Source of the DNA: Glutamicibacter sp. B1
GTDB lineage: Bacteria > Actinomycetota > Actinomycetes > Actinomycetales > Micrococcaceae
Direction: 5' to 3'
Assembly (NCBI RefSeq): GCF_039602135.1
Contig: NZ_CP125942.1
Coordinates: 2,542,001-2,606,000, forward strand
DNA: 64,000 bases
The translations under genes and the position numbers were made by a program. Below the pieces are notes generated by a model. The model was not told the DNA's origin. It was given only the letters and a program-made list of their open reading frames with translations, and ran no database searches. Shown here piece by piece: positions 23,233-42,407 of the stretch (position 1 is the stretch's first letter; each line of letters begins with the position of its first letter).

Positions 23233-23258
23233 ACATACTGACCGTTCGTTCAGTATGT
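23233..23258. promoter_or_regulatory. PaaR-type operator at paaA promoter
   Basis: 26-bp inverted repeat (11 of 13 base pairs symmetric), halves ACATACTGACCGT and TCGTTCAGTATGT. On the minus strand it overlaps a possible -10 (CATACT, 23252-23257) with TTGACG (23276-23281) as -35, 26 bp before the paaA ATG. The same motif recurs at 29677, 37401 and 42318. Confidence 0.75.
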
Positions 23259-23300
23259 CAGAGTGCGCTCCATCACGTCAACATGGCTTGCCCAGGTAAA

Positions 23301-23334
23301 GCAAAACCCCAAGGAAGATTCCTTGGGGTTTTGC
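23301..23334 (-). terminator. Terminator downstream of doxX-like gene
   Basis: GCAAAACCCCAAGGAA-GA-TTCCTTGGGGTTTTGC, perfect 16-bp arms, 16 bp past the DoxX-family stop. Confidence 0.85.
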
Positions 23335-23349
23335 CTAAAGCACTATCAA

Positions 23350-23799
23350 CTAGGCGTTAACTGAATCGCGCTGCGCGCCCTTTCGGCGAACAAACAGTCG
23401 ATCCAATGCCCAGCTACCTGGACCCATCAATGCCAAGGCAGCTGCACCTGCACCCAGTGCGAGGACTAGTTCAAAACCGCCCTCAGCAACAAAAACGCCA
23501 CCTTGGGCGTGAACCAAAACAATAGCGCCAAACATATCCAGAGCCAAGAGAGCTCCGAAGATTCGAGTTGCGATACCAAGAATCAACGCAATACCGCCAA
23601 CAAGTTCCAAGGTTGCCACGACAGGCGCGACAAGGTTTGCCACCGGGACACCCATCTCGGTAAAGCTGGCAGTGGTACCCGCGATGGTGAATTGTGAGAA
23701 TTTTTGCCATCCGTGAGCTGCGAAGAGGAAACCGATCGCCAAGCGCAAGACGATCTGCGCCGCGGCAAGCAAGCGGTGATTATTTTCCAACGTGGTCAT
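23350..23799 (-). CDS. DoxX-family membrane protein
   Basis: 149-residue protein with four transmembrane segments (IVLRLAIGFLFAAHGWQKF at the start, LVAPVVATLELVGGIALILGI, IFGALLALDMFGAIVLVHA, LVLALGAGAAALALMG). The FAAHGWQK motif in helix 1 is typical of DoxX/SURF4-like proteins. Some family members take part in redox or thiol-stress systems; the role here is unknown. Monocistronic between paaA and the second ABC operon. Confidence 0.88.
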   Translation of the reverse strand: MTTLENNHRLLAAAQIVLRLAIGFLFAAHGWQKFSQFTIAGTTASFTEMGVPVANLVAPVVATLELVGGIALILGIATRIFGALLALDMFGAIVLVHAQGGVFVAEGGFELVLALGAGAAALALMGPGSWALDRLFVRRKGAQRDSVNA

Positions 23800-23872
23800 G
23801 GTCTAGCTCCTAAATAGAGACTTCCGGCCAGGGGTTCCAGCTCGTTTTCCTACCCCACGCTATTCACATCAA

Positions 23873-23900
23873 CTTGAACCTTCAAGCACATTGACGTCAA
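23873..23900. promoter_or_regulatory. Palindromes upstream of the DoxX gene
   Basis: CTTGAA-CC-TTCAAG (23873-23886) followed by TTGACGTCAA (23891-23900), 74-101 bp upstream of the DoxX start. Read on the minus strand, TTGACG could serve as a -35 element. They may be a repressor or activator site; no regulator gene is adjacent. Confidence 0.35.
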
Positions 23901-23922
23901 AAGTCAGTAAGCTTCCTCACGC

Positions 23923-23977
23923 AAAAAGCCGTACTGCCCATGCCCAGAACAAGCTGGAATGGACAGTACGGCTTTTG
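23923..23977 (-). terminator. Terminator of the second ABC operon
   Basis: AAAAGCCGTACTG pairs with CAGTACGGCTTTT around a long loop containing secondary pairing, directly downstream of the ATPase gene on the minus strand. Confidence 0.75.
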
Positions 23978-23998
23978 AAGAAACCACTAGGTTAGACG

Positions 23999-24754
23999 CT
24001 AGAGAACCTTGGAAAGGAAGTCACGGGTGCGTTCTTGTTGAGGGTTACCAAAGAGCTGCTCAGGCTCCCCCTGCTCGCAGACGACACCATCAGCCATAAA
24101 GATCACGCGGTCACCCACTTCACGGGCAAAGCCCATTTCGTGAGTCACCAAGACCATCGTCATACCCGACTCGGCCAGCTCCTTAATAACTTGGAGCACT
24201 TCACCGACCATCTCCGGGTCAAGAGCACTGGTGGCCTCATCAAAGAGCATGATGCCAGGAGCCATAGCTAGGGCTCGGGCGATGGCCACACGCTGCTTCT
24301 GACCACCGGACAACGAGACCGGCCGAGCATCCGCTTTATCGCGCAGGCCAACGCGCTCCAGCAGCTCTAGGGCACGTTCACGCGCCTGTGCCTTGTTCAT
24401 CTTCTTTAGTTCCACCGGGGCGAGCATGATGTTCTCGGCCACGGACATGTGTGGGAAGAGGTTAAAGTGCTGGAACACCATGCCCACGTGACGGCGGACT
24501 TCATTGATATCCACCTTGGGATCGGTGACATCAAAACCGTCAACGACCACCTTGCCGGAGGTGATATCTTCCAACTTGTTCAGGCACCGCAACAGGGTGG
24601 ACTTACCGGAACCCGAAGGCCCAATCACGCACACGACTTCGCCTTCACGGATATCAATATCAATACCCTTGAGGACATTGTTAGAGCCGAATGACTTGTG
24701 CAGGTCTTTGACCTGAATTTTCACCTCGGAGCTTTTGACAGTTTCAGTGCTCAT
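23999..24754 (-). CDS. Amino-acid ABC transporter ATP-binding protein
   Basis: 251-residue ABC ATPase of the polar amino-acid group, close in layout to the one at 5914. Walker A is GPSGSGKST at about 44, Q-loop [10 protein letters not shown], signature [15 protein letters not shown], Walker [14 protein letters not shown], switch His VTHEM. The Walker B distal Pro seen in its paralogue (DEPTSALDP) is Ala here, a common variant. It overlaps the upstream fused permease gene by 4 bp. Confidence 0.95.
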
Positions 24755-26217
24755 TTGTTGAACCTCCGATCGGCGTAGTTAGCCAGCTTGGTTAGGGCCA
24801 TGATGGCGATGAAGTAGATGACACCCACAATGAGCAGGGTTTCGGTGACGCGGAAGTTCGCTGCGTAGATCTGCTGACCTTGGTAGAGCAGTTCGCCGAA
24901 GCCGATGGCCAATAGAAGCGACGAGTCTTTCAGGCTGATGATCAACTGGTTGATCAGCGACGGAGTCATCATCTTGAAGGCCTGCGGAACCACGACCTTC
25001 TGCATCGACTTGCCGTAGCCCAGACCCAGCGAACGTGATGCTTCAAGCTGTCCTGGATCCACCGACTGGATACCACCGCGCACGATTTCAGCCACGTAGG
25101 CGCCAGCGTTCAGCGACAGGGTCAAAACACCCGCGGTCCACACGCTGATATCAACGTGCAACAGCTGTGGCAGGCCGAAGTAGAACATGAACGCCCATAG
25201 CAACAATGGGGTTCCGCGGAAGATGTTCACGAAGGTCGTGGCAATACCGCGCAATACGATGTTGCTGGAGATCTTCATGAAGCCGAAGAGTAAGCCCAAG
25301 ACCATCGCAATGGCGAAGGAGATCGCGGTGACTAGCAGGGTGTGCCACAAACCGCTCATCAACGCTGGGAAGGACTTCACTACGAGGTCAAAGAAGTTAC
25401 TCGGAACTGCAGCGCTTGGATCTGCGAGATACTCATCGAGGATCTTCTGGTACTCGCCGCTTGCCTTCAACTCGGCTAGGCCGTCATTAAAGGCTGCCAG
25501 CAGCGCGGTGTTCTCGCCCTTATTAACTGCAAAGCCGTAGGATCCGCCGGGAACCTTATCGGTCACGGTCTTCAGCCCATTGCCCTGCGCAATGCCATAG
25601 GCCAGCACCGGATAGTCATCGAAGACCGCCACTGCTGAACCGGCCTTGACTGACTCGTACATCGTTGCCGACTGATCTAGCGACTTGACGGTGAACCCAT
25701 ATTCCTTAGAAATGGACTTCGCGTAGGTTTCACCTTCGGAGCCAGTTTTAGCTACTACCGTCTTGCCATCAAGATCTTCATAGCTTTTGACGTCCTCATT
25801 ATTTTGGGCCACGGCCATCTGAACGCCGGACTCGAAGTAAGGCTCGGAGAAATCATAAATTGCTTTACGTTCATCGGTGATCGACATGCCTGCGATCACG
25901 CCGTCCACCTGGTTAGCCGACAAGGCAGCTAGGGCAGCGCTAAAACCGAGCGAGCGGACTTCAACCTTGAAACCCTGATCTTCGGCAATCGCGTTCAGAA
26001 TATCCATGTCGATACCGGTCAGTTCCCCATCCTTGCGGAATTCGAAGGGGGCGAAGGTGGTATCGGTACCAATAACGTAGGTCTGACCTTCGACGCTTTC
26101 ACTGCCTTGGGCCATTGCAGATGGTGCGCCAACAACCAGGGCCATTAGGCCAATGGTTGCGGCGGCAACCCATCGCCTCAGGCGCCCGGTGTAGGCAACT
26201 CTTTGTTTCTTTTCCAC
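24751..26217 (-). CDS. Fused substrate-binding protein/permease of amino-acid ABC transporter
   Basis: 488-residue two-domain protein. A signal sequence ([21 protein letters not shown], cut before Q) leads into a family 3 binding domain ([49 protein letters not shown]) to about residue 270. A HisM-type permease domain fills the remainder ([24 protein letters not shown] loop [21 protein letters not shown]). Fused SBP-permeases are known in Gram-positives and place one binding domain on each permease protomer. GTG at 26217 gives a good signal peptide; an in-frame TTG at 26256 would add 13 residues. Confidence 0.9.
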
Positions 26218-26418
26218 TGATGATCGCTTTCTCGTGCTGAAGGGCGAGTGGCCCAAGCTGCAGATAGGTTCCTATTCCAGCAAGCCTAAGCGCAATAAAG
26301 TCTAGCCGGAACCCTTTGTCCCTCGTTGCCACAGGTTTTCAGTTTTGGATCTGGCGAATCTGTCCGCGCTGAGCATAGCTTGTGTCCAACAGTCACAGAG
26401 GTGAGATTGAATAGGGTT

Positions 26419-28572: not shown

Positions 28573-28593
28573 CCGAAAACAGGAGGAGCGGCC

Positions 28594-29607
28594 ATGCGCC
28601 ATATCAACATCAAGGACTATCGTAACGATCCGTCGGTACGCCAGTTATTGGTGCTGGCCGCCGATCCTGTGGGCGCACAAGGACTCGAAGACTTGCTCGA
28701 TGAATGTCAGAACCTTCAAGTGCTGGCTCATTTCACCGAGGATGAATCCATCACAGCCCTGGCCGCTTATCGGCCCAGCGACCGATATTCGCTCTGTCTG
28801 GAGTATCTAGCAGTACTTCCTGAATTCCAGCAGCGGGGTTTGGGACGAGCCGTGGTCGAAGAATTACGCACCGTGCACCACAAAAGCGTGTGGGCCACCA
28901 CGGACGATGATGCCATCGATTTTTATCGGTCTTTGGGTTGCGTCATCTCATCTGGCCCCGAAGATCCACGGTGGCCCGGAATTTCACGTTATCTGTGCAC
29001 TCTGCCCTATCTTCCACTGCTGACCAGTCAGCCGGACGAAGATCCCGAGTATGAGGCAGTTGGTGGTCAACTGATGCGGAGAAAAATTGTCCTTGAGGAT
29101 CCTTCTGAGAGCTGGCCACAGGAGTTCAACGTGCTCGCAGAAACGATCAGGGCTGCACTAGGCCCGGCCGCCATGGCCATCGAGCATACTGGTTCCACCT
29201 CAGTTCCAGGTCTTGCTGCCAAACCCATTATTGATATTGCCTTACTGGTACTAGATGCCAATGATGAAGCCAGCTACGTTCCCGCACTGGAAAAAGCGGG
29301 GCTAGTGTTTTGGCATCGCGAGCCCGGTTGGTATGCACATCGCATGTTCAAGCCACGGGCTGAGCATGATCGTATGGATGCCAATATCCATGTGTTTTCG
29401 GTTGGTAGCCCAGAATATCTACGCATGATGCTCTTTCGTGAGCATCTACGTACCGATGCTGTTGATCGAACGGCGTATGCCCGCGTCAAGCGTCAGGCGG
29501 CCGCTCAGTTATTACGTGAGCAGGGCGAAGATGGTCTCGTCATGGATTACAACCGGGTCAAGGAACCCTTCATTCTTCGGCTGCACGAAAAGCTCTTCCG
29601 CCACTAG
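28594..29607 (+). CDS. GNAT-GrpB two-domain protein
   Basis: 337 residues with two domains. Residues 1-145 read as a GNAT acetyltransferase, with the acetyl-CoA motif LEYLAVLPEFQQRGLGRAVV and a later DDDAIDFYRSLGC. Residues 165-335 match the GrpB (UPF0157) nucleotidyltransferase-like family: VLEDPSESWPQEF, then IEHTGSTSVPGLAAKPIIDI (the GSTSVPGL signature with nearby Asp), REPGWYAHRMF, NIHVFSVGSPE. GrpB domains are usually stand-alone and their reaction is unknown. The GGAGGAG ribosome site is strong. It may be co-transcribed with ptrB. Confidence 0.82.
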   Translation: MRHINIKDYRNDPSVRQLLVLAADPVGAQGLEDLLDECQNLQVLAHFTEDESITALAAYRPSDRYSLCLEYLAVLPEFQQRGLGRAVVEELRTVHHKSVWATTDDDAIDFYRSLGCVISSGPEDPRWPGISRYLCTLPYLPLLTSQPDEDPEYEAVGGQLMRRKIVLEDPSESWPQEFNVLAETIRAALGPAAMAIEHTGSTSVPGLAAKPIIDIALLVLDANDEASYVPALEKAGLVFWHREPGWYAHRMFKPRAEHDRMDANIHVFSVGSPEYLRMMLFREHLRTDAVDRTAYARVKRQAAAQLLREQGEDGLVMDYNRVKEPFILRLHEKLFRH

Positions 29608-29653
29608 TCTGCACTTCTTATTCGCAACAGAGCGTTGTTTAGCATTTCAAAAC

Positions 29654-29698
29654 TTGACTTAGCTCACATTATGTTATTACCTAATGATCGTTCGGTAA
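29654..29698 (+). promoter_or_regulatory. paaI promoter with PaaR-type operator
   Basis: TTGACT at 29654-29659 can act as -35. The 22-bp inverted repeat at 29677-29698 (halves TTACCTAATGA and TCGTTCGGTAA, 9 of 11 pairs symmetric) covers the expected -10 and ends 21 bp before the paaI start. It matches the sites upstream of paaA, paaZ and the thiolase gene. Confidence 0.7.
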
Positions 29699-29719
29699 AT
29701 AAATCGGCGAAGGACAATG

Positions 29720-30160
29720 ATGACCAAAGCACAAGTAGAAGAACCAGTACCGCACGCCATTCTCCGTAATGACTACGCCACCCAGTGGATGGGCATCAAT
29801 GTCATCGAAGTACGTGACGGGCACGCTGTCATCACCATGGAGCTGCGCCCCGAAATGCTCAACGGTTTCGGCATTGGACACGGCGGAATGATCTTCGCCC
29901 TCGCCGATACCGCCTTCGCGTTAAGTTGCAATCCAGTAGAAGGTTCCGAGCAGAACATCACCGTCGCCTCCGGCGCAGACATCAACTTCCTACGGCCGGC
30001 AATTCCAGGACGAACGCTCACCGCCACCGGTAAACGAGTCTCGCAACAAGGACGTAGCGGGGTTTATGACATTACCGTGACCCAAGAATCACCCGAGGGC
30101 ACCACCGAAGTCGTGGCTGAATTCCGCGGCCGATCCCGCACCGTTCCCAAGCCCCAGTAG
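29720..30160 (+). CDS. paaI: Hydroxyphenylacetyl-CoA thioesterase PaaI
   Basis: 146-residue hotdog-fold thioesterase. The helix GFGIGHGGMIFALADTAFALSCN carries the HGG and catalytic Asp of PaaI. PaaI hydrolyses dead-end or accumulated hydroxyphenylacetyl-CoA, freeing CoA. Two consecutive ATGs exist; the second (29720) is five bases after GAAGGA and is preferred. First gene of paaI-paaK-paaR. Confidence 0.92.
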   Translation: MTKAQVEEPVPHAILRNDYATQWMGINVIEVRDGHAVITMELRPEMLNGFGIGHGGMIFALADTAFALSCNPVEGSEQNITVASGADINFLRPAIPGRTLTATGKRVSQQGRSGVYDITVTQESPEGTTEVVAEFRGRSRTVPKPQ

Positions 30161-30198
30161 CGCCTACTCTTCAGTTCACTCCACACGAAAGTTTCACC

Positions 30199-31518
30199 AT
30201 GTCCCAGACTTCCAGCCGCGATTCCCTTCCTAATCCATTGGATCCCGAAGAGACCATGAGTCGTGATCAGATCGAAGCTATCCAGCTTGAACGGCTCAAG
30301 GAAACACTGAACCACGCCTACACCAACGTTCCGTATTACAAAGAAAAATACGACGCCGCTGGAGTTCATCCAGAGGACCTGAAGGAACTGGGCGATCTTG
30401 CGCTTTTCCCCTTCACCGATAAAGAAGACCTGCGCAAGAACTACCCCTTCGGAATGTTTGCTGTTCCCCAGCATGAAATCTCAAGGATCCACGCGTCTTC
30501 AGGGACTACCGGACAACCAACAGTCGTGGGCTATACCCAAAAGGATTTGGACGACTGGGCCAAGCTCGGGGCGCGGTGCCTTCGCCTATCTGGAGTGAAG
30601 CCAGGCTGGAAAGTTCACAATGCTTACGGTTACGGACTTTTCACGGGTGGCTTGGGCGCCCATGCTGCTGCCGAACGTTTGGGAGCCACGGTCATCCCCA
30701 TGTCCGGTGGCCAAACGGATAAGCAGATTTCACTGATCCAAGACTTCGCTCCGGATGCGATTCTGTGCACACCTACCTACCTGTTGACCATCGGAGATGC
30801 GATGCAGCGTAAGGGACTGGATCCGCGCAATACTTCGCTGAAGGTCGCAGTCCTTGGTGCTGAACCGTGGACCGAGGAAATGCGTCACGAGCTCGAAGAG
30901 ATGTTCAACATCGATGCCTGTGACATTTATGGTCTCTCAGAGGTCATGGGCCCAGGCGTTGCCGGTGAATCTAACGAACGCAAAGACGGTAGCCACATCT
31001 GGGAAGATCATTTCCGCCCAGAAATCATTGATGCCTTTGATTCCAGCAAGGTATTAGGCGACGGTGAACACGGAGAGCTGGTCTTTACCTCGTTGACCAA
31101 GCAGGCCCTGCCAATTATCCGTTACCGCACCCACGACCTGACTCGCCTTCTTCCCGGCAGTGTTCGACCGGGCCACCGCCGTATGGGACGTATTACCGGA
31201 CGCAGTGATGACATGATCATTCTGCGCGGAGTCAATCTCTTCCCGAGCCAGATTGAAGAACTCATCTTGAAGGTTCCAGGCCTCTCCCCTCACTTCCAGC
31301 TGATTCTCACGCGTCCAGACCGCATGGACCAGTTGGCAGTAAAAGTTGAGCGACGTTCGGATGCTACCGCTGAGCAGGCAGCACTTGCCGGCAAGGAATT
31401 GGCCAAACTGATCAAGATCCACATTGGTTCTTCCTGCGCCATCGATGTTGTAGAGCCAGAGTCTCTCGAACGTTCCATGGGTAAACTCAAGCGCATCTAT
31501 GACCTACGTAACCAGTAA
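30199..31518 (+). CDS. paaK: Phenylacetate-CoA ligase PaaK
   Basis: 439-residue ANL-family ligase activating phenylacetate with ATP and CoA, the first step of the pathway. The ATP-binding loop is IHASSGTTGQPTVVGYT at about 95, CTPTYLL and DIYGLSEVMGPGVA in the middle, then the hinge region TGRSDDMIILRGVNLFPSQIEE and a C-terminal catalytic Lys in ERSMGKLKR. Typical PaaK length. It follows paaI by 38 bp. Confidence 0.95.
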   Translation: MSQTSSRDSLPNPLDPEETMSRDQIEAIQLERLKETLNHAYTNVPYYKEKYDAAGVHPEDLKELGDLALFPFTDKEDLRKNYPFGMFAVPQHEISRIHASSGTTGQPTVVGYTQKDLDDWAKLGARCLRLSGVKPGWKVHNAYGYGLFTGGLGAHAAAERLGATVIPMSGGQTDKQISLIQDFAPDAILCTPTYLLTIGDAMQRKGLDPRNTSLKVAVLGAEPWTEEMRHELEEMFNIDACDIYGLSEVMGPGVAGESNERKDGSHIWEDHFRPEIIDAFDSSKVLGDGEHGELVFTSLTKQALPIIRYRTHDLTRLLPGSVRPGHRRMGRITGRSDDMIILRGVNLFPSQIEELILKVPGLSPHFQLILTRPDRMDQLAVKVERRSDATAEQAALAGKELAKLIKIHIGSSCAIDVVEPESLERSMGKLKRIYDLRNQ

Positions 31519-31550: not shown

Positions 31551-32168
31551 ATGGACACAACCGACATTGCTAGTCGCCCAGTAAAACGCGGGCGCCCCGG
31601 GTACGATCAGGAAACCGTACTAAGAATTGCCGTCGAGGCTTTTAATGAATACGGCTACGACGCGACCTCAATGGGCAAGCTCGCCGACCGATTGGGCATT
31701 AGCAAGTCCGCGATTTATCACCATGTTCCTTCAAAAGAGGATTTGCTCCGCCTGGCCTTAGATGAGGCACTGTTTCCACTGGAAGCGGTCATCAGCGAAG
31801 TACGCACACACGCAGGTAGCGCCGATGAACGTTTGGAATTTTTCTTACGTTCGACCATCCGCATTCTGATCGACAAGCGCCCTTACGTGACCTTGTTGTT
31901 GCGCCTGCGCGGTAATACCGAGTTGGAACGCGATGCGTTGCAACGCCGTCGTGCAATGGACCGTCAGTTGGCGGAATTGGTCACTGCGGCGCAAAGCGAC
32001 GGCAAACTGCGAGACGACCTAGAACCGCGTTCCACCGCTCGTTTGCTGTTCGGCATGATCAACTCAGTGGTTGACTGGTATCGCGTTGATGGCCCGATCG
32101 AAGCTTCGTCGTTGGAAAACCAGGCGGTATCGCTACTCTTTGATGGTCTGCATACTGTAGCGAAGTAG
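31551..32168 (+). CDS. paaR: TetR-family regulator, probable PaaR
   Basis: 205-residue TetR-family protein. The N-terminal HTH is at about 20-60: VLRIAVEAFNEYGYDATSMG then LADRLGISKSAIYHHVPSKEDLL. An all-helical ligand domain follows. It is last in paaI-paaK-paaR, 32 bp after paaK, with only a weak ribosome site. TetR-type PaaR repressors sensing phenylacetyl-CoA are established in Corynebacterium and Thermus. The four matching inverted repeats in this window are its probable targets, including the one controlling its own operon. Confidence 0.88.
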   Translation: MDTTDIASRPVKRGRPGYDQETVLRIAVEAFNEYGYDATSMGKLADRLGISKSAIYHHVPSKEDLLRLALDEALFPLEAVISEVRTHAGSADERLEFFLRSTIRILIDKRPYVTLLLRLRGNTELERDALQRRRAMDRQLAELVTAAQSDGKLRDDLEPRSTARLLFGMINSVVDWYRVDGPIEASSLENQAVSLLFDGLHTVAK

Positions 32169-32188: not shown

Positions 32189-32221
32189 ATGGGCCCTCTG
32201 TTCGTTGAACAGAGGGCCCAT
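32189..32221 (+). terminator. Terminator of paaI-paaK-paaR
   Basis: ATGGGCCCTCTGTTC-GTT-GAACAGAGGGCCCAT, perfect 15-bp arms, 20 bp after the paaR stop. Confidence 0.9.
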
Positions 32222-32359
32222 TGGTCTTCAACCGATAAATATCTAACGCCCTGTGGTACATGCAACCTTGGGGAATTCACGTACTCACAGGTTTCACCGC
32301 TAGCATCTAAGGGGTGCCTTTTGCACCTGTCGTTGCCAATCAATCGAGTGAAGAGCACC
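32222..32359 (+). promoter_or_regulatory. Possible structured 5' leader of the PnuC-like gene
   Basis: 138 bp between a strong terminator and the next gene. CCTGTG (32250-32255) can pair with CACAGG (32286-32291), and GGTGC-CTTTT-GCACC forms a hairpin at 32312-32326. No known riboswitch consensus (TPP, FMN, NAD-type, preQ1) fits by eye. A vitamin-related leader would be plausible for a PnuC-like gene, but this is speculative. Confidence 0.25.
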
Positions 32360-33100
32360 GTGGATTCCATCTTAGAAACCCTGTTCATGACTACTGCGGA
32401 CGGCAGTAGTTCCTACGTTCAGATCCTGCTGTCTGCCGCTAGCATGTTGTTAGTTTTCGTCTCCGCAATTTTGCTTGCGCATCGCAATGATCTGGGCTGG
32501 TGGACTCTAATCCTCTCGGTATTTGTCGGCCCGATGATCTCGGCCTTGCAGTACGATCTGATGGGTTTGATCTACGCGATCCCACTGTTGTTGCTCCCTA
32601 TTTTTGGGCTTTGGCGGTTCTCGCAGTTCAAACTTCGCGGCAAGTTCACCCGTGAGGTGACCAAAACATCTGTGACCCTATGGTCTGGAATCGGCATGGT
32701 CGTGGGTTTGATCTTGCTTGTCGCCCTTCGCTTTGGCCCATTCCTGTTCAACTCTGGTTTCCTCTCCGCAACGCCTGAAGTCTGGGTCATGTACTTTGCG
32801 GACGCAGCCATTTTTGCTTCCTTCGTCATGGTTGCCCGCGGCGTTCGCGAAGGCTGGTTGCTACTGGCTGTGGCTGCCATCGCCGATTTGGTGGTTTACT
32901 TCCTGATTTCACCAATGCTTGGCATGCTGGGCCTATATGTCTTTATTGCGTTATCCGCGCTCTACGGCTACTTCCTGTGGCGCAATTTGCCGGTGGCAGG
33001 AAGCGAAGTCGAAGGTGTAGAGCTGAGCGAGGAAGAGCTGGCACTGCAAAAAGCTAAGCAGGCAACCTTGGATAAGTTGAACACCAAAACCGAAAACTAA
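32360..33100 (+). CDS. PnuC-like integral membrane protein
   Basis: About 246 residues with seven predicted membrane segments and a charged C-terminal tail. Its two halves recall the PnuC vitamin/nucleoside transporter fold: MGLIYAIPLLLLPIFGLWRFSQF in the first half, and VREGWLLLAVAAIADLVVYF followed by LYVFIALSALYGYFLWRN in the second, where PnuC proteins carry a similar W...D...Y / GY..W pattern. The substrate is unknown and the family call is tentative. The start is uncertain: GTG at 32360 (AAGAG upstream), GTG at 32348 or ATG at 32387 are possible; codons further upstream overlap the paaR terminator. Confidence 0.6.
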   Translation: MDSILETLFMTTADGSSSYVQILLSAASMLLVFVSAILLAHRNDLGWWTLILSVFVGPMISALQYDLMGLIYAIPLLLLPIFGLWRFSQFKLRGKFTREVTKTSVTLWSGIGMVVGLILLVALRFGPFLFNSGFLSATPEVWVMYFADAAIFASFVMVARGVREGWLLLAVAAIADLVVYFLISPMLGMLGLYVFIALSALYGYFLWRNLPVAGSEVEGVELSEEELALQKAKQATLDKLNTKTEN

Positions 33101-33108
33101 TTCAGTGC

Positions 33109-33146
33109 AAAAAGTGTTCCCGACATTGTGCCGGGAACACTTTTTT
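33109..33146. terminator. Bidirectional terminator between PnuC-like gene and amylase
   Basis: AAAAAGTGTTCCCG pairs with CGGGAACACTTTTTT around a nine-base loop; A-tract on one side and T-tract on the other serve the two convergent genes. Confidence 0.88.
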
Positions 33147-33151
33147 GTTGC

Positions 33152-34936
33152 CTAGTTACGCCAGCTGTCAGCCAGCTTGAGAGAGCCGTCGGCTTTCACC
33201 GTGGCGGTGCGATTGCTTCCCGATTCCCACACGGTGTTGCCGCTTTGGTCACATTTGACGTACTTGTATTCAAATTGGGTGCCGGCCGGCAGATCAACCG
33301 TCCCAGTCCAACTGGGGTAATTCTTGGCAGATAACTGAACTGCCTTAGCTGGATTCCAACTTCCAAGTTCTGGCTGATTGCCAACGATGCGGATGTTCTG
33401 CCCCATGACGGTTTCAGCAGTCACTGCCACACTAACATCGGCTGAGCCTTCAGTCGGATCTGGGGTTTCCGTCCCACCACCGGTGCCATCGGAGAGAGCA
33501 CCGACGTGTAATGCAAGAGCACCGTAGGCTGGCAGGGTCGCGGTGAACTTTCCGTCGGCACCGACGGTTATAGTCTTTGAGCAATCCCCATCAGCAACCA
33601 CATCGCAATAGGTTCCTGCCGCCAGAGCGCTGGTGTATTCGTGGGTGGTGGCAGACCCAGTGTTATTAATGGCTACGAATCCCTTATTGCCTCGGCCGTA
33701 AGCGATTTGGTTGCTCCCGTCGTCCCACCAGTTACCAACCGCAGCGTCTCCCACAGCATTGTTGAATCCAACCATGCCGGTAATTTCGTCTTGGCGCTGC
33801 TCGCAGGTCCAGGATGAAGAATCGCAGTTTGCGTTTGGCACGGAAGCATCGCTCGCACCAGGTGCACCGGCTTCCTTGTCGGTGAAGGTGAACCCTGAGT
33901 ACACGGTGGGCGACCCATAAGGCCAGGAAAGCATAAAGACGTTGGCCAATAGGTACTTGGCACCCCATTTGTAGTTCATGGACTCGCCATTACGTTCGGT
34001 GTCGTGGTTGGTCACAAAGACGCCGGCACGGTCGCTGGTGAGTTTGCCATCACCGATGAAGCGTAAGTTGGCGATCTGCGCGTCAAAATCATGCTTGAGC
34101 TGGCGGGCATAGTCGAACTCATGAGAGTCACCACTGCCAAGATATTCGGTTTCTTGAATTGGTTCTCCGGACGCTCCGATGACTTCATGCACCCAGAAGA
34201 CGCCCGGGTTTTTCATCTTGGACTTGATGGCTTCGAGATCCGTTGCTGGAATGTGTTTTGAAGCATCGATGCGGAATCCTGAGACTCCGAGTGAAACGAG
34301 ATCATCCAGGTAATCGGCGATGTTCTGTTGAACGTAGCTGCTTGAGGTCTTGAGGTCCTGTAGGCCCACTAGGCGGCAGTTCTGCACCTGCCAACGGTCA
34401 GAGTAGTTGGAGATGTTGGTGCGGCAGTCATTGAAGTCTTGTGCCGAGTACTCTGGAAAATTGTCATCTGAGAAGGGCGATCCGGCGGTTCCTGTTCCCG
34501 ACTGTCCAGCACCGGTCATATGGTTGACCACCGCGTCAGCTATCACTTTGACCCCTGCATCATTGCAGCTTTTGACCATGGCAGAGAATTCTTCACGGTT
34601 ACCTAGCTTCGAATCAATTTTGTAGCTGACCGGTTGGTACGAGGTCCACCATGCTGTGCCGCGCAAATGCTCGGCCGGAGGGGAAACCTGCACATAGCCG
34701 TAACCTGCGGGGGCAATGGATGACTTGCACTCTTGCGCAACAGAATTCCAGTTCCACTGGAACAAATTGAGGATAACGTCTTTCCCGTCATTGGACGGGG
34801 TAGCAGCCTGGGCAGGTGCAGAGAACAGCGGGGCAGCAAGCAAAGCCAGGGAGGCTCCCAAAGCTGCGGCTGGTTTGGCAATCTTTGTACCTTTTCGTCG
34901 TTGTGTTGGGTTAGCACGCGATGACAAGAGTCCCAC
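33152..34936 (-). CDS. Secreted alpha-amylase with C-terminal starch-binding domain
   Basis: 594-residue GH13 amylase. A Sec signal ends at APAQA-A (about 44/45). The barrel carries conserved region I DAVVNH, nucleophile Asp in GFRIDASKHI, acid/base Glu in WVHEVIG and the third Asp in VTNHDTERNG. After a Thr/Pro linker (GGGTETPDPTEG) the last 95 residues are a CBM20: VGNQPELGSWNPAKAVQLS, GTQFEYKYVKCD, TVWESGSNRT. It hydrolyses starch outside the cell. The GTG start is seven bases after AGGAG. Upstream LacI/cre-like sites suggest sugar repression. The gene sits between two paa loci without functional link. Confidence 0.95.
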   Translation of the reverse strand: MGLLSSRANPTQRRKGTKIAKPAAALGASLALLAAPLFSAPAQAATPSNDGKDVILNLFQWNWNSVAQECKSSIAPAGYGYVQVSPPAEHLRGTAWWTSYQPVSYKIDSKLGNREEFSAMVKSCNDAGVKVIADAVVNHMTGAGQSGTGTAGSPFSDDNFPEYSAQDFNDCRTNISNYSDRWQVQNCRLVGLQDLKTSSSYVQQNIADYLDDLVSLGVSGFRIDASKHIPATDLEAIKSKMKNPGVFWVHEVIGASGEPIQETEYLGSGDSHEFDYARQLKHDFDAQIANLRFIGDGKLTSDRAGVFVTNHDTERNGESMNYKWGAKYLLANVFMLSWPYGSPTVYSGFTFTDKEAGAPGASDASVPNANCDSSSWTCEQRQDEITGMVGFNNAVGDAAVGNWWDDGSNQIAYGRGNKGFVAINNTGSATTHEYTSALAAGTYCDVVADGDCSKTITVGADGKFTATLPAYGALALHVGALSDGTGGGTETPDPTEGSADVSVAVTAETVMGQNIRIVGNQPELGSWNPAKAVQLSAKNYPSWTGTVDLPAGTQFEYKYVKCDQSGNTVWESGSNRTATVKADGSLKLADSWRN

Positions 34937-35262: not shown

Positions 35263-37392
35263 TTAGCTCTGGAAGTTGGCGTAGGTGACGTCTTCTTTCT
35301 CCACGAGAGTCAAGACATCATAGGTTGCGACAATTTCGCCATTTTGGTTGTGCAAGATGGCATCCCAGGCGACTTCACCATATTCGTCGGTGACACGAGG
35401 CGTGATCTTCTTGGCCGTGAGTGTCACGCGAATCGCGTCTCCTGCGGCCACAGGGGTGATGAAGCGCAAGGACTCTAATCCATAGTTGGCCAATACCGGC
35501 CCCGGAGCTGGCTCAACGAACAGGCCAGCTGCCCAAGACACCAAGAGGTAGCCGTGAGCGACGATGCCAGGGAAGAACGGATTAGCTTCTGCTGCCTTAG
35601 CATCAGTATGCGCATAGAACGTATCACCGGTCTTCTGCGCAAACTCGCTGATGTCTTCCAGATTCACAGTACGTAAGTCGGAGGCAAAGCCGTCGCCTAC
35701 GCGCAATTCGGCCAGTGATTTCCGGAATGGGTGAGTGTATTTCGCTTCCCCACCGAATTCTTCACAACCTGCCAAACGCTGTTCGGCCCCCGTATGCCAG
35801 ACCCCGCTGAGCGCCGTCAACATGTTGGGTGAGCCCTGTACGGCGGTACGCTGCATGTGGTGCTTGACCGATCGAATTCCGCCTAGTTCTTCACCACCGC
35901 CGGCTCGACCTGGACCGCCATGGACCAAATGAGGCACCGGCGAGCCATGGCCGGTCGTTGAACGAGCGGTCTCTCGATTGAGGATGTGCACGCGACCATG
36001 GTGGGCAGCAATACCCAAAGCGAGCTTGCGCACGCTGTCAGTGTTATTACTGCACACGGTGGCGACCAATGAACCGGAGCCCATTGCAGCAAGTTCCACT
36101 GCTTCTTCAAGGTTCTCGTAACCGATCACAGAACTGACTGGTCCGAAGGCTTCGCGAGAGTGCACGAGTGGATTGCGCGCATCTGCCCAGCGAAGAACAA
36201 CGGGAGACATAAACGCACCTGACTCCGCCACGGCGTCTTTTTCAGGAGCCACGCGTACCGCAGGGGCATCCAGACGACCATAGGCCAGCTCGCCACCGGC
36301 GTCGATCATGTCTTGAACCGCCGAGCGTACATCCGCCAGCTGTTCCAAAGATGCCAGCGCACCCATGTTTACGCCCTCAACACGTGGATCACCAATGACT
36401 ACTCGCTCGTCAATGCGTTTTCCGATAGCAGCGATGACTGGCTCAACCAGCTCAGCAGGGACGATGTTTCGACGGATAGCAGTACATTTCTGGCCAGCTT
36501 TAGAGGTCATCTCGGTCACCACGACTTTGACGAAGGCCTCAAATTCTGGGCTACCTTCCACCGCGTCCGGCGCCAGAATTGCAGCGTTGAGCGAGTCAGT
36601 TTCTGCCGCGAACTTCACTCCCCCATCAATGACGTTTGGATGAGACTTGAGCTTACTGGCGGTGGCAGCCGAACCCGTAAAGGCGAACATGTCGCGATAG
36701 TCCAGGTGATCCATGAGGTCTCGGGCCGAGCCGGAAAGTAACTGCAAGGACCCCTCTGGAAGAATTCCAGATTCAAGCATGAGTCGGACGGTAGCCTCGG
36801 TGAGGTAGCCCGTTGGAGTTGCCGGCTTCACGATAGTCGGCACGCCGGCAATAAAGGCTGGGGCGAATTTTTCGAGCATGCCCCAGACAGGGAAGTTAAA
36901 AGCGTTGACCTGAACCACAACACCACTCATTGCAGTGTAGATGTGGGTGCCCACAAATGAGCCGTCCTTGCTCAATGGCTCGCTGGGTCCATCAAGAATG
37001 ACGTTGCTGTTGGGTAGTTCGCGACGACCCTTGGAAGAAAAGGTGAAGAGCACGCCGATGCCGCCATCAATATCCACCATGGAATCAATTTTGGTGGCGC
37101 CGGTCTTAAAAGAGACCTCGTAGAGGTCTTTTCGTAGATCATTCAGATACAGCGCTAGCTCCTTGAGCTTGAGCGCACGCTCATGCAAGGAGAGCTTAGC
37201 TAGTTCTTGTTGCCCGGTGCTACGGCCATAGTGCACGGCAGCCGCGACATCTAATTTGTCGTTGGTGACTGTGGCAAGTAGTTCGCCGGTATTAGCATCT
37301 CGGACTTCTGTTCCGCCCGCGGCGGCGGGGGTCCACCATTGTCCTGCGATGAAGCTTGGGACTACGCTGATCTGTTTTGTCGACATTGACAC
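35263..37392 (-). CDS. paaZ: Bifunctional oxepin-CoA hydrolase / aldehyde dehydrogenase PaaZ
   Basis: About 709 residues, full length for PaaZ. The N-terminal ALDH domain (1-530) has Glu in KFAAETDSLNAA and catalytic Cys in GQKCTAIRRN. The C-terminal MaoC-type hydratase domain (about 550-709) has the Asp/His pair in YAHTDAKAAEANPFFPGIVAHG. PaaZ opens the oxepin ring and oxidises the resulting semialdehyde to 3-oxo-5,6-dehydrosuberyl-CoA. GTG (37392) and ATG (37386) both fit after AGGAAGG. It is monocistronic, with the operator immediately upstream. Confidence 0.95.
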   Translation of the reverse strand: MSMSTKQISVVPSFIAGQWWTPAAAGGTEVRDANTGELLATVTNDKLDVAAAVHYGRSTGQQELAKLSLHERALKLKELALYLNDLRKDLYEVSFKTGATKIDSMVDIDGGIGVLFTFSSKGRRELPNSNVILDGPSEPLSKDGSFVGTHIYTAMSGVVVQVNAFNFPVWGMLEKFAPAFIAGVPTIVKPATPTGYLTEATVRLMLESGILPEGSLQLLSGSARDLMDHLDYRDMFAFTGSAATASKLKSHPNVIDGGVKFAAETDSLNAAILAPDAVEGSPEFEAFVKVVVTEMTSKAGQKCTAIRRNIVPAELVEPVIAAIGKRIDERVVIGDPRVEGVNMGALASLEQLADVRSAVQDMIDAGGELAYGRLDAPAVRVAPEKDAVAESGAFMSPVVLRWADARNPLVHSREAFGPVSSVIGYENLEEAVELAAMGSGSLVATVCSNNTDSVRKLALGIAAHHGRVHILNRETARSTTGHGSPVPHLVHGGPGRAGGGEELGGIRSVKHHMQRTAVQGSPNMLTALSGVWHTGAEQRLAGCEEFGGEAKYTHPFRKSLAELRVGDGFASDLRTVNLEDISEFAQKTGDTFYAHTDAKAAEANPFFPGIVAHGYLLVSWAAGLFVEPAPGPVLANYGLESLRFITPVAAGDAIRVTLTAKKITPRVTDEYGEVAWDAILHNQNGEIVATYDVLTLVEKEDVTYANFQS

Positions 37393-37400
37393 AATTCCTT

Positions 37401-37420
37401 CCTGAACGGTCGGTCAGTAT
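37401..37420. promoter_or_regulatory. PaaR-type operator at paaZ
   Basis: On the minus strand ATACTGACCGACCGTTCAGG, nearly identical to the paaA site. It ends 8 bp before the GTG start and runs into the AGGAAGG ribosome box. A possible -10 (TACTGA) lies within it, with TTGCTG as -35. Confidence 0.72.
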
Positions 37421-37530
37421 TACCGTTAACCTTATCAGCAAGATCGTGACGGAGGACACCCAAATCTTCCGCGGCGTAATTTTCGCGCCTAGCGCCATTC
37501 AAAAGTTATGGGAGATAGGGCAGGAATACA

Positions 37531-38253: not shown

Positions 38254-38337
38254 AGACCCATTGCAACACACCAATTCTCTAATGTAGAGTTACAGCCATT
38301 GGCAAATGTCAATCAGTCTATTGAAGGAGGGGTAACG

Positions 38338-38436
38338 ATGATTGTTTACCGCCGTTCCCAGTCACGTATCTCCCTTTCTAAGGACTTCCCCCAATGCATT
38401 TTCCAGCTGGAGAAAAATCCACCAGCGCACAGCTGA
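38338..38436 (+). CDS. Possible 32-residue leader ORF before RIO kinase
   Basis: ATG at 38338 lies seven bases after a perfect AAGGAGG (38324-38330), the best ribosome site in this region. It encodes 32 basic residues starting MIVYRRSQSRISLSKDF and ends with TGA at 38434-38436, overlapping the first 43 bases of the RIO kinase gene in another frame. The RIO start has its own weaker AAGGA. It may be a translationally coupled leader peptide or a tiny protein. There is no recognisable family. Confidence 0.4.
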   Translation: MIVYRRSQSRISLSKDFPQCIFQLEKNPPAHS

Positions 38437-39296
38437 TCACTTCTGACTTCGCTGACAACGACAGTCAACTCAAATTCCTCAAGCGTAAGCCCGTTTGGAA
38501 AGAGTCTGCGCCCGATGAGCCTCCTGCCGGCCAACGGTACTCCACCTGGCCATTCGTCGAGAAGGGTTTGCGCGGTCCGCAACCCTATCCAGTGTGGTTG
38601 ATCGAGGATGCAGCGGCCATTGACACCGAGCTAGGCATCCTCAAGACGGGCAAAGAGGGCGATGTCTTTTTGCTTGAACGGGCCACTGCCGAACGCAAGA
38701 GCCTACTGGCTGCCAAACGCTATCGTTCCCGCGAGCACCTGCAATTTAGCCGCTCGCAAGCCTATAGTGACGGTCGCTCGGCCCGGCGATCCCGAGATAA
38801 TCGAGCTATCCGCAATAATTCCACGTATGGTCGGGACATCGCCGCCCTTCAGTGGGCTAATGCTGAATGGACGTACCTGTTGCGGTGTTATGCCGCTGGC
38901 ATTCCGGTTCCGTATCCGGTGCAGATTGATGGCACCGAAATCTTGATGGAGTTCATTGCTGACCCGGATAATCCATTGACCGCAGCGCCACGCCTTCAGC
39001 AGCTCTCGCGCTTTGACCCACGCCTACCGTCACTGTGGGAACAGCTCACCGAAGCCTTGGAAAAGTTCGCTAGCTTGGGTGTGGCGCACGGTGACCTCTC
39101 TGCCTACAACCTTTTGGTTTCCGGCGAGCGCTTGGTCGTCATTGATGTACCGCAGTGTGTCGATCTGGCCGGTAACCCGCAAGGAATGGACTTCCTTCAT
39201 CGCGATTGTGTGAACCTGTGTGATTGGTTCGCCTCCAAGGGACTATCCAACGATCCTGATGAGCTCTTTGCTTCCCTTCTAGGGCACCTGTTCTAG
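38394..39296 (+). CDS. RIO-type serine protein kinase
   Basis: 300-residue atypical kinase. It has the RIO nucleotide loop in ILKTGKEGDVFLLER at about 83, the catalytic loop VAHGDLSAYNLLV at about 232 (Asp, Asn) and the metal-binding segment LVVIDVPQCVDL. A basic YRSREHLQFSRSQAYSDGRS stretch replaces the flexible loop. The first 60 residues look disordered. RIO kinases act in ribosome maturation in eukaryotes and archaea; bacterial members are poorly characterised. A tyrosine phosphatase gene is divergent with about 140 bp between the starts. Confidence 0.88.
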   Translation: MHFPAGEKSTSAQLITSDFADNDSQLKFLKRKPVWKESAPDEPPAGQRYSTWPFVEKGLRGPQPYPVWLIEDAAAIDTELGILKTGKEGDVFLLERATAERKSLLAAKRYRSREHLQFSRSQAYSDGRSARRSRDNRAIRNNSTYGRDIAALQWANAEWTYLLRCYAAGIPVPYPVQIDGTEILMEFIADPDNPLTAAPRLQQLSRFDPRLPSLWEQLTEALEKFASLGVAHGDLSAYNLLVSGERLVVIDVPQCVDLAGNPQGMDFLHRDCVNLCDWFASKGLSNDPDELFASLLGHLF

Positions 39297-39308
39297 TAGC
39301 TCATCGCA

Positions 39309-39351
39309 GGACAGTCCCCGCCGGAACCTTTGCTCCGACGGGGACTGTCCT
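39309..39351. terminator. Terminator between RIO kinase and PaaH-like gene
   Basis: AGGACAGTCCCCGCCGGA pairs with TCCGACGGGGACTGTCCT (one mismatch) around ACCTTTGC, between convergent genes. Confidence 0.85.
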
Positions 39352-39374
39352 ATTGGTGTCAGGCTACCTGCGAT

Positions 39375-40247
39375 TTACCAGGAGTAGAACCCTTGACCGC
39401 TCTTACGGCCTAATTTGCCCTGGGCCACCATGTCTTTGAGGATCTGCGGTGGTGCAAACCGATCCCCCAAGGTCTCATGAAGATATTCGGCAATTCCCAG
39501 ACGCACATCCAATCCGACAATATCGGTAGTTTTCAGTGGGCCTGTCGGATGCTTATATCCGAGCACCATGGCGTTATCGATGTCTTCAGCCGAGGCGACA
39601 CCTTCTTCCACCATGCGCATGGCTTCCAATGCGATAGCCACCCCCAAACGCGAGGAAGCAAAGCCTGGAGCATCGTTAACCACCACAGCAGTCTTACCCA
39701 GGGCCTGGACCCAACCGCGCGATGCTTCGACCAAGTTTTCGTCGGTCTGTTCACCGATAACCACTTCAATAAGCGTTGATGCCGGCACCGGATTGAAGAA
39801 ATGCAATCCAAGGAACTTACCCGGTCGCACTAATTCTTTGGCCAACCCGCTGACCGAGAGTGAGGAAGTATTTGATGCCAGCACAGCATTGGGATCCAGC
39901 ACCTTTTCTACGGCCTGGAGCGAGGAAACTTTCAGTTCCCAAATTTCCGGCACCGCTTCAATCACCAATTGCGCGGTAGCGAACTGCGCATAATCCGTAC
40001 TGACCGAGAAACGCTGCATCAGCTGATCTTTGGACTCGCTGACCACGGCACGCGCGATGGACTTGTCCACGGACTCAGAAACTCGTTCGTATGCGGCTTG
40101 TGCGGAGGCTTCGTCTCGTTCAACGACCACAACGGTACTGCCGCTGATGAGTAGCGCGTGGGCGATGCCGGCACCCATGCGGCCACCGCCGAGCACACCA
40201 CTATTCTGTGGAAGTTGACCTGATGCGATGCTGTTACTTGCACTCAT
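39375..40247 (-). CDS. paaH: 3-hydroxyacyl-CoA dehydrogenase (PaaH-like)
   Basis: 290-residue NAD-dependent dehydrogenase. The Rossmann motif is VLGGGRMGAGIAHALL at about 19. Conserved segments are LVIEAVPEIWELK, SNTSSLSVSGLAKEL, FLGLHFFNPVPASTLIEVV (catalytic His), and VNDAPGFASSRLG. Context with thiolase and hydratase supports oxidation of 3-hydroxyadipyl-CoA in the phenylacetate lower pathway; 3-hydroxybutyryl-CoA dehydrogenase is the alternative. Last gene of the three-gene operon. Confidence 0.85.
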   Translation of the reverse strand: MSASNSIASGQLPQNSGVLGGGRMGAGIAHALLISGSTVVVVERDEASAQAAYERVSESVDKSIARAVVSESKDQLMQRFSVSTDYAQFATAQLVIEAVPEIWELKVSSLQAVEKVLDPNAVLASNTSSLSVSGLAKELVRPGKFLGLHFFNPVPASTLIEVVIGEQTDENLVEASRGWVQALGKTAVVVNDAPGFASSRLGVAIALEAMRMVEEGVASAEDIDNAMVLGYKHPTGPLKTTDIVGLDVRLGIAEYLHETLGDRFAPPQILKDMVAQGKLGRKSGQGFYSW

Positions 40248-40249
40248 AG

Positions 40250-41044
40250 TTACTTCTTCTTTCGATCAAGAAAATCTTGCATGCGGTCAAACTTAGCCTG
40301 CGATTCAAAGAGCATTCCTTGCGCAAGGGTGTCGATCACCGGATGGACTTCGCGCGGGGTATGGAATACCGATTTGGTGATCCGAACGGCCAATGGGTCT
40401 TGTGACGCGATGCGATCTGCCAACGCATTTGCAGCTTGTTCTAGCTCTGCCGCAGGATGCAACTCGGTAATCAGGTTTGCTGCCAAGCACTGCTCACCGG
40501 TAAGCACCTTGCCAGCCAAAAGGATTTCCTTGGCCAAGGGCTCGCCTACGAGCTCTTTGAGCCTCCAGGTTGCCCCGGCTGCTGCCATGATGCCCAGGTT
40601 GGTTTCGGGGTTACCCATGCGCAATTCTGGGGTACCAATACGGAAGTCTGCCGCGTAAGCCAGCTCGGCACCACCACCTAGAGCGAACCCGTCGAGAGCT
40701 GCGATCACCGGCATAGGTAGTTTGGCGATACGGTCAAAAATCCCGGAATTGATTCCGGCGAGCGCGTCATCACGGCGACGCTCACGTAACTGTGAAATAT
40801 CCGCGCCGGAAGCAAAGATTCCCTTAGCCCCCTTTGGATTCTGATCGCTGGGTGCTTGGCTGGCAGTCCCTGCCAAGATCAGAACTTTCGGATTCTTTTC
40901 TAGATAACTACACACGGCATGCAGCTCATCGACCATGGTTTGATCAATGGCGTTACGCACCTCCGGGCGATGCAACCGAATCCACAGCCGGTCCTCGGTT
41001 TCACTGGCAAGAAGCGTTTGAAACTCGGTCTCGAAACTCGCCAT
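40250..41044 (-). CDS. paaF: Enoyl-CoA hydratase (PaaF-like)
   Basis: 264-residue crotonase. It has RPEVRNAIDQTM near the N-terminus, oxyanion hole FASGADISQL, and AALDGFALGGGAELAYAADF. The two catalytic Glu positions appear as GAELA and NPETNLGIM. It would hydrate 2,3-dehydroadipyl-CoA. ATG at 41044 follows AAGGGG; an in-frame start 17 codons upstream would overlap the thiolase gene. It lies between the thiolase and dehydrogenase genes with 2-bp gaps. Confidence 0.85.
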   Translation of the reverse strand: MASFETEFQTLLASETEDRLWIRLHRPEVRNAIDQTMVDELHAVCSYLEKNPKVLILAGTASQAPSDQNPKGAKGIFASGADISQLRERRRDDALAGINSGIFDRIAKLPMPVIAALDGFALGGGAELAYAADFRIGTPELRMGNPETNLGIMAAAGATWRLKELVGEPLAKEILLAGKVLTGEQCLAANLITELHPAAELEQAANALADRIASQDPLAVRITKSVFHTPREVHPVIDTLAQGMLFESQAKFDRMQDFLDRKKK

Positions 41045-41046
41045 CT

Positions 41047-42270
41047 TTAGGCCCCTTCCAGCAAGATGGCAGATCCCTGCCCAACGCCAACACACATGGT
41101 AGCCACGCCGAGCTTACGCTCTGCTGTTGCCAACTCACGTTCCATCCGGCCCAAAAGGGTGATGACAATTCGCGAACCGCTTGATCCCAAAGGATGTCCT
41201 AGCGCAATCGCTCCACCGTCACGGTTCACGATCTGTGGGTCCACCCCAAGTTCACGGATGCTGGCCAGGGATTGGCTTGCAAAGGCTTCATTGATCTCCA
41301 TGGCTCCGAGCTCACCGATCGTTAGCCCGGCACGATCAAGAACCTTGTTAGTGGCCGGCACCGGTCCCATACCCATGATCTCTGGTTCCAGACCTGCAGA
41401 CTGTCCGTCAACAATTCGGGCGCGAGCGTTCAATGAGTACTTCTTCAGGGCCCGTTCGGAGACCACCAGAATCGCCGAGGCCCCGTCATTAAGCGAGGAC
41501 GCGTTCCCGGCAGTAACGACTTCGCCGCCACGAACCACTGGCCGAAGCCCGGACAGAACATCCATGCTGGTTCCAGGGCGCGGACCTTCATCAGTATCTA
41601 CGATGGTTTCGCCCTTACGATGCTTTACGGTCACCGGCACTATTTCATCTTTGAAATGCCCAGCGTCAATCGCAGCTATGGCTTTGGCATGAGAATCAAC
41701 CGCAAACCGGTCGCAGTCTTCGCGGGAGATTCCGTAAACACGCGCCACTTCCTCGGCAGTCTCTGGCATGGAGAAGGTCGCTTTGCCATCACGGGAGAGC
41801 TCACCAGAGAGGAATTGTGGATTGGTGAAGCGCCAGCCAATGGAGGTATCGAATACCGCTCCGGGCTTAGCAAAAGCCTTATCCGGTTTTTCCATGACCC
41901 ATGGTGCACGAGACATTGACTCCACGCCACCTGCGATCACCACGTCCGCAGCACCAGCCTTGATCATGTGGCTAGCCATCGTAATGGCGCTCATTCCAGA
42001 AGCACACAAACGATTGACGGTAATGCCCGGCACACTCACCGGCAGACCGGCCAGCAATGAAGCCATGCGAGCGACATTGCGATTCTCTTCCCCCGCGCCG
42101 TTTGCATTACCGAGAATGACTTCATCAACCGCTGACGGATCGATGCCAGATTCTTCAACGAGAGTCCGAATGGTCAGCGCGGCTAGATCATCGGGGCGCA
42201 CTGCACTGAGCGCTCCACCGTAGCGTCCTACCGGGGTACGGGTCCCGCCGACGAGATATGCTTCAGTCAT
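41047..42270 (-). CDS. paaJ: 3-oxoadipyl-CoA/acetyl-CoA thiolase (PaaJ-like)
   Basis: 407-residue thiolase. Nucleophilic Cys is in TVNRLCASGMSAI at about 92, His in ALGHPLGSSGSRI and the second Cys in MCVGVGQGSAI at the C-terminus. The N-terminal AYLVGGTRTPVGRYGG is characteristic. The operon and shared operator indicate the terminal thiolysis of 3-oxoadipyl-CoA and 3-oxo-5,6-dehydrosuberyl-CoA. ATG at 42270 has AAAGGAG five bases upstream. First gene of the operon. Confidence 0.88.
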   Translation of the reverse strand: MTEAYLVGGTRTPVGRYGGALSAVRPDDLAALTIRTLVEESGIDPSAVDEVILGNANGAGEENRNVARMASLLAGLPVSVPGITVNRLCASGMSAITMASHMIKAGAADVVIAGGVESMSRAPWVMEKPDKAFAKPGAVFDTSIGWRFTNPQFLSGELSRDGKATFSMPETAEEVARVYGISREDCDRFAVDSHAKAIAAIDAGHFKDEIVPVTVKHRKGETIVDTDEGPRPGTSMDVLSGLRPVVRGGEVVTAGNASSLNDGASAILVVSERALKKYSLNARARIVDGQSAGLEPEIMGMGPVPATNKVLDRAGLTIGELGAMEINEAFASQSLASIRELGVDPQIVNRDGGAIALGHPLGSSGSRIVITLLGRMERELATAERKLGVATMCVGVGQGSAILLEGA

Positions 42271-42317
42271 TTGTGCTCCTTTGGCCAAAACTGTTCAGTG
42301 ATCCTCAACACCTAAAC

Positions 42318-42341
42318 TTACCGACCATTCGTTCAATAATA
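42318..42341. promoter_or_regulatory. PaaR-type operator at thiolase operon promoter
   Basis: TTACCGACCAT / TCGTTCAATAA (42318-42339), the same motif as at paaA, paaI and paaZ. On the minus strand it overlaps a good -10, TATTAT (42336-42341), 48 bp upstream of the thiolase start. The divergent menB promoter begins about 30 bp away. Confidence 0.7.
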
Positions 42342-42400: not shown

Positions 42401-42407
42401 TCATAGG

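Follow-up and report, generated by a model that had tools for sequence, protein, structure and literature searches.

We have identified a PaaR regulon in Glutamicibacter sp. B1 that very probably unites four transcription units for phenylacetate degradation with an unlinked gene for an MHS-family symporter. The paa genes lie in a 64,000-nucleotide stretch of contig NZ_CP125942.1 (positions 2,542,001 to 2,606,000; hereafter the window, whose first letter is position 1), and the symporter lies outside it. One two-fold symmetric operator occurs at the promoters of paaA, paaI, paaZ and paaJ and at that of the symporter. Judged from sequence comparison, its most likely reader is PaaR, the product of 31551-32168, which is encoded by the only TetR-family gene of the window, stands in an operon that itself bears a site, and co-occurs with the operator across the class.

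Operators at the paa promoters and their predicted reader

Four 20-bp inverted repeats were located in the window, upstream of paaA, paaI-paaK-paaR, paaZ and paaJ-paaF-paaH (Table 1). The half-site reads TAYYGAMCG, and the halves are separated by a 2-base centre. A symmetric matrix was built from the four sites and used to score all window positions, of which these four took ranks 1-4 with 24.5-30.1 bits. The next score, 16.2 bits, belongs to the paaI site in a 4-bp-shifted register, and the best independent place reaches 10.7 bits, in line with the first-pass annotation, which had noticed none of similar quality beyond the four. Ranks 1-4 were also retained in all four leave-one-out matrices, where the paaI site scored lowest (17.8 bits) and the other three gave 19.3, 21.0 and 27.7 bits. 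All four repeats announced by that annotation are thus present, the one at paaZ a single base away from the place given (it is at 37400-37419), but "near-identical" is too strong a term for the paaI site, which is asymmetric with CCTAATG in its left half. This operator is perhaps a deliberately weaker, autoregulatory site. An asymmetry like that of paaI (TACCTAATGA..., a half-site with T and AATG) is also found in other genera.

The four sites are strongly conserved. Within the genus, mean pairwise identity at the sites is 0.97-1.00 versus 0.36-0.90 in flanking 20-base blocks (11 loci, L001-L011, for paaA, paaI and paaZ; 18 genomes for paaJ). The paaI 20-mer is identical in all 11 of these loci and in 8/8 Paeniglutamicibacter-type loci (L012-L017, L020, L021), and the paaJ site is present in each of the 18 genus genomes. 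The family set comprised 149 genomes, taken as Micrococcaceae; at E 1e-80, paaA was detected in 137 of them, and at E 1e-130 the symporter in 129. Thirty paaA loci, from 29 genera, were fetched from the 137, and every one has a site of at least 22 bits within ~175 bp upstream of the start of the paaA alignment. With the start of each gene extrapolated from its alignment, sites were counted upstream of paaA in 29/30 loci (the one missed, L090, has its site when measured from the alignment start), of paaI in 16/17 (several sharing the paaA-paaI intergenic site), of paaZ in 8/11 (9/12 before L065, a coordinate artefact, was dropped) and of paaJ in 4/6.

At the level of the class, 20 loci of 20 kb each were fetched from 74 genomes with paaA. 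A site above 14 bits, a line set after the scores were known, occurs anywhere in the locus in 12/12 loci with a PaaR gene versus 3/8 without one (Fisher p 0.0036), and sites within 400 bp upstream of paaA were found in 10/12 and 2/8, respectively (p 0.019). The three loci that have a site but no PaaR gene within their 20 kb speak against PaaR as the reader. Together with the genome's 31 TetR_N matches, 30 of which exceed the cut-off, they leave room for the view that a different TetR protein reads the paa repeats and that the gene at 31551 controls other targets. We consider this very improbable, given that every class locus with PaaR has a site and that, both in the window and in many relatives, paaR comes after paaI and paaK with a site ahead of these genes. 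Conservation across 50 PaaR sequences is also higher in the helix-turn-helix region (0.78) than in residues 75-200 of the C-terminal part (0.64), though such a difference is common in TetR proteins. Just one of the 31 TetR_N matches falls in the window, at 31551, in agreement with the first-pass annotation.

At paaA, the operator appears to be placed for occlusion of RNA polymerase. The only sigma-70-like match touching an operator is TTGACG-18-CATACT at this gene, with its -10 overlapping the operator, and across 29 paaA operators of the family the left half coincides in part with a TATNCT-like hexamer. Of the -35, only the opening T is conserved, in 26/29 of them. Since the paaA operator covers the -10, bound PaaR would block the polymerase, and the sequence arrangement supports such occlusion. 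A general promoter scan of the region gave 3 promoter-like matches versus a shuffle mean of 11.4 and hence no support beyond paaA. The first-pass annotation had claimed a -10 overlap at each repeat, which is well supported at paaA; at paaI, paaZ and paaJ the overlap is plausible by eye.

Counting the motif across the whole genome was dropped as a proof of specificity, as the counts equal those of controls. With 0-1 mismatch, the palindromic pattern TAYYGAMCGNNCGKTCRRTA matches at paaA, paaZ and paaJ only. At up to 2 mismatches it matches 7 places versus 6 for the reversed control, at up to 3 mismatches 42 versus 48, and a looser pattern, used first with as many as 2 mismatches allowed, gave 15 forward and 13 reverse matches versus 22 and 20 for the control. 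There is no genome-wide excess in any of the three counts, which weighs against a specific regulon. Specificity therefore rests on position and conservation. The four places with 2 mismatches to the palindromic pattern include the paaI site and 1347976-1347995, the symporter site described below; the sequences of the other two, 1985703 and 3110200, do not recur in the genus among the matches listed. Place 2067383 (L025) was set aside for its low score. Two other operator-like 20-mers were seen to recur among the matches listed: TAGCGACCGATCGTTCAAGA in G001 (C3:2314323) and G007 (C11:71001), and TATCCAACGCGCGGTAAGTA in G005 (C1:2010348) and G006 (C1:59604), the latter with a 3-mismatch relative in the B1 genome.

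An unlinked site at an MHS-family symporter

A fifth operator-like site lies outside the window at G000:C1:1347976-1347995, 1.2 Mb from the four paa sites and ~23 bp upstream of the start of an MHS-family symporter gene (~1348019-1349356). The best profile match of this gene is TIGR00883 (metabolite/H+ symporter), at 394.7 bits and below the cut-off of 443.45. The gene is found at 81% identity or more in 18/18 genus genomes, and so is its site, with scores of 14.3-22.2 bits. Across the 18 genomes the site stands out as a sharp footprint, with a mean pairwise identity of 0.955 versus 0.36-0.38 in the four 20-base blocks on its flanks.

In the family, a site of at least 13 bits occurs within 350 bp upstream of the symporter in 30/36 loci, from 28 genera, a score that 4% of 1080 random 380-base pieces from symporter loci reach, true sites included. 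The matched control consisted of 20 MHS paralogues from the family, with 50-58% identity, none of which has a site at 13 bits (Fisher p 3e-10); when the threshold is set at 12.5 bits, the counts are 30/36 and 1/20 (p 7e-9). Two of these controls (G139, G153) are the best MHS match of their genome, and without them the control count is 0/18.

The distribution of the symporter follows that of paaA. With every match that reached E 1e-130 counted, the symporter is absent in 11 of the 12 genomes without paaA (six genera) and present in 128 of the 137 with paaA (p 1.4e-10). In nine genomes, including one that lacks paaA, the best match is weaker and paralogue-like, so a stricter count was made with ortholog-like matches only; by this count the symporter is absent in 12/12 and present in 120/137 (p 3e-10). 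Symporter and paaA lie within 40 kb of each other on one contig in at least 26 genomes of 8 genera, counted by eye, against a chance estimate of ~2.4% per genome, and paa genes adjoin the symporter in 9/36 family loci (L107, L111, L113, L114, L121, L123, L124, L125 and L126). From these sequence relations, the symporter is a candidate phenylacetate importer. A literature search by titles and abstract openings found no link between PaaR and an MHS transporter.

Several observations count against including the symporter in the regulon. Its site has T where all eight half-sites of the window have A, and scores only 17.1 bits in its own genome. Six of the 36 loci (L100, L102, L111, L120, L125 and L126) are without a 13-bit site, and the best of the 20 paralogue controls reaches 12.6 bits. 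The symporter is missing from 9 of the 137 genomes with paaA (17 by the stricter count), and the co-occurrence and linkage statistics ignore shared ancestry. The neighbouring IclR-type regulator may also control the symporter, and another of the TetR proteins of the genome could read its site.

These points can be assembled into an alternative in which the four paa sites are PaaR operators, and the symporter site is merely similar and read by the neighbouring IclR-type protein or by another TetR protein. The T in one half-site is conserved across the genus, the symporter has an IclR-type gene on the opposite strand in its own locus and IclR-type relatives beside it in 14/36 family loci, and 31 TetR_N matches offer other readers. 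We nevertheless regard this alternative as unlikely. In other genera the symporter site is often of the plain paa type, e.g. AACCGACCGCTCGGTCAGTA in L119, in whose 8-kb locus no IclR match was seen; paa genes stand beside the symporter in a quarter of the family loci, and it tends to be missing along with paaA; and the TetR_N match nearest to it is ~10 kb off. The IclR-type gene lies beyond the site at L024:3058-3753 (G000:C1 ~1347057-1347752), its label being assigned from sequence, with no NCBIfam match at 1e-20.

It could also be argued that all of this conservation stems from promoter elements or shared ancestry instead of an operator, as the left half of the paaA operator does overlap a -10. 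This explanation is hardly credible in view of the two-fold symmetry and the recurrence of one motif at five promoters, the flanks of the symporter site, which are only 36-38% identical, and the empty paralogue control. We favour the reading of a single PaaR regulon with five members. The proposal of the first-pass annotation that one motif ties four paa units together is supported by these comparisons, and falls short only in the apparent fifth, unlinked member.

Genes of the paa region

Labels of the paa enzymes were taken from NCBIfam profile matches (Table 1). The order paaI-paaK-paaR, which places paaR with the paa genes, is found in the window and in relatives. PaaR is 100% identical to a TetR protein of Arthrobacter sp. 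NIO-1057 and 74-90% identical to its counterparts in 10 further loci (L002-L011) of strains named Glutamicibacter or Arthrobacter. Among solved structures, the closest to it by sequence is 2IAI (SCO3833; E 2.7e-49).

Table 1. Predicted operators and paa genes, in window positions
Feature	Position	Strand	Remarks
Predicted PaaR operator of paaA operon	core 23236-23255; palindrome extends 23233-23258	-	TACTGACCGTTCGTTCAGTA; overlaps CATACT -10
Predicted PaaR operator of paaI-paaK-paaR (autoregulatory)	29678-29697	+	TACCTAATGATCGTTCGGTA; asymmetric, left half TACCTAATG
Predicted PaaR operator of paaZ	37400-37419	-	TCCTGAACGGTCGGTCAGTA
Predicted PaaR operator of paaJ-paaF-paaH	42319-42338	-	TACCGACCATTCGTTCAATA; in paaJ/menB divergent gap
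paaA, first gene of epoxidase operon	22221-23207	-	TIGR02156 over cut-off
paaB, paaC, paaD, paaE and PaaG-like enoyl-CoA hydratase, downstream of paaA	18581-22281	-	paaB/C/D/E over cut-off; PaaG below
paaI, thioesterase	29717-30160	+	TIGR02286, 119.6 bits (cut-off 118.9)
paaK, phenylacetate-CoA ligase	30199-31518	+	TIGR02155, 635.2 bits, just under cut-off (646.3)
paaR, TetR-family repressor (predicted), 205 aa	31551-32168	+	TetR_N (PF00440) and TetR_C_24 (PF17932), both over cut-off
paaZ	35263-37386	-	TIGR02278 over cut-off
paaJ-type thiolase	41047-42270	-	Best match 3-oxoadipyl-CoA thiolase, 521.7 bits, below cut-off (605); TIGR01930 acetyl-CoA C-acyltransferase over cut-off
paaF-type hydratase	40250-41095	-	Best match PaaF, 137.4 bits, below cut-off (371)
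paaH-type 3-hydroxyacyl-CoA dehydrogenase	39375-40247	-	Best match 262.8 bits, below cut-off; PaaH model 187.8 bits, far below cut-off

Other genes lie among the paa units. A gene for an Lrp/AsnC-type regulator (17985-18479) is convergent with the end of the paaABCDE-paaG-like operon, and a relative of it is present in 18/30 family paaA loci. The gene preceding paaI (28594-29607) encodes a protein that combines a GNAT domain at the N terminus with a GrpB domain at the C terminus. The interval between paaR and paaZ (32189-34936) holds a PnuC-like gene (weak match) and an alpha-amylase-like gene, neither of which has a match between paaR and paaZ in two Kocuria loci. On the far side of the gap that bears the paaJ operator, a menB-like gene (42258-43370) is oriented divergently from paaJ. 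In G. creatinolyticus its place is taken by a different MHS-like gene (36% identity; L011:19619-20581).

Known PaaR systems, proposed mechanism and significance

For the PaaR protein of Corynebacterium glutamicum, Chen and co-workers reportedly described a 22-bp motif, ACTNACCGNNCGNNCGGTNAGT, in 2012; this string was not found in the literature searched. Like that protein, PaaR of strain B1 is a TetR protein encoded with a paa cluster, and the half-site ACTNACCG is reportedly shared. The reported 22-mer differs from the paaA, paaZ and paaJ sites of the window by 2-3 mismatches each and has 5 window matches against an expectation of 0.21; one of the five falls within paaJ, at 42034. The paaI site, in contrast, has no match to it within 3 mismatches. 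The window sites are best described as an 18-20-bp repeat with a 2-base centre; the reported 22-mer can be read as two such repeats offset by 4 bp. Compared with 29 family paaA sites, the 22-mer gives a mean of 3.28/16 mismatches in the better register and 4.52 in the other. The A and T directly to the right of the paaA 20-mer, kept in 28/29 and 29/29 loci, fit its outer bases. A symmetric extension of the paaA operator was not supported, the left side being mostly ATA and the right side AWT. The C. glutamicum PaaR regulon is not known to include an unlinked symporter.

PaaR has been described as the dominant predicted local regulator of paa clusters in Actinomycetes, including the group with Arthrobacter (PMC13186573); in the text available of this survey, the term "binding site" is absent and no operator is given. 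In Burkholderia cenocepacia, PaaR (BCAL0210) represses paa promoters through inverted repeats; the authors liken its operator to that of QacR, describing it as two overlapping repeats (PMC2770484). The repeat there is of 14-15 bp and lies between the -35 and -10, whereas the 18-20-bp repeat found here overlaps the -10 at paaA. For Thermus thermophilus PaaR (TTHA0973), the reported site CNAACGNNCGTTNG (PMC6651687) shares its two-base centre and its ACG core with the sites described here, and the protein is released by phenylacetyl-CoA (PMC9493321). Later selection on the T. thermophilus protein gave AACnAACGTTnGTT, which lacks the two-base gap and so speaks against the likeness; in the available text of the same source, only two promoters are known for it (PMC6651687). 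PaaX of E. coli and Pseudomonas serves the same pathway with the same inducer, but is of the GntR type (PMC9493321), whereas the regulator here is of the TetR type.

In the proposed mechanism, PaaR made from paaI-paaK-paaR would bind the same operator at five promoters, and at paaA would hold off the polymerase. Once phenylacetate enters, PaaK would convert it to phenylacetyl-CoA, the presumed inducer, which would release PaaR so that all five units are switched on. Repression of its own operon would make PaaR self-limiting, and derepression of the symporter would import more substrate in a positive loop. The conserved outer A and T at paaA, the Burkholderia dual overlapping repeat and the reading of the reported 22-mer as two repeats offset by 4 bp together make two PaaR dimers per operator possible. 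We give even chances to the full combination, in which, throughout the family, PaaR would control the MHS symporter as a phenylacetate importer, encoded at a distance from the paa cluster in some genera and within the cluster in others, uptake, activation and degradation would form one switch with a positive loop, and the paaA operator would be a dual overlapping site with a 4-bp offset for two PaaR dimers.

Our predictions describe a PaaR regulon of a kind known in actinobacterial hosts, with the symporter as its newly predicted member. One operator design is kept across a whole actinobacterial family, and the operator matrix may be used for calling the PaaR regulon in other genomes. A specific gene is named for phenylacetate uptake, which would make that uptake testable.

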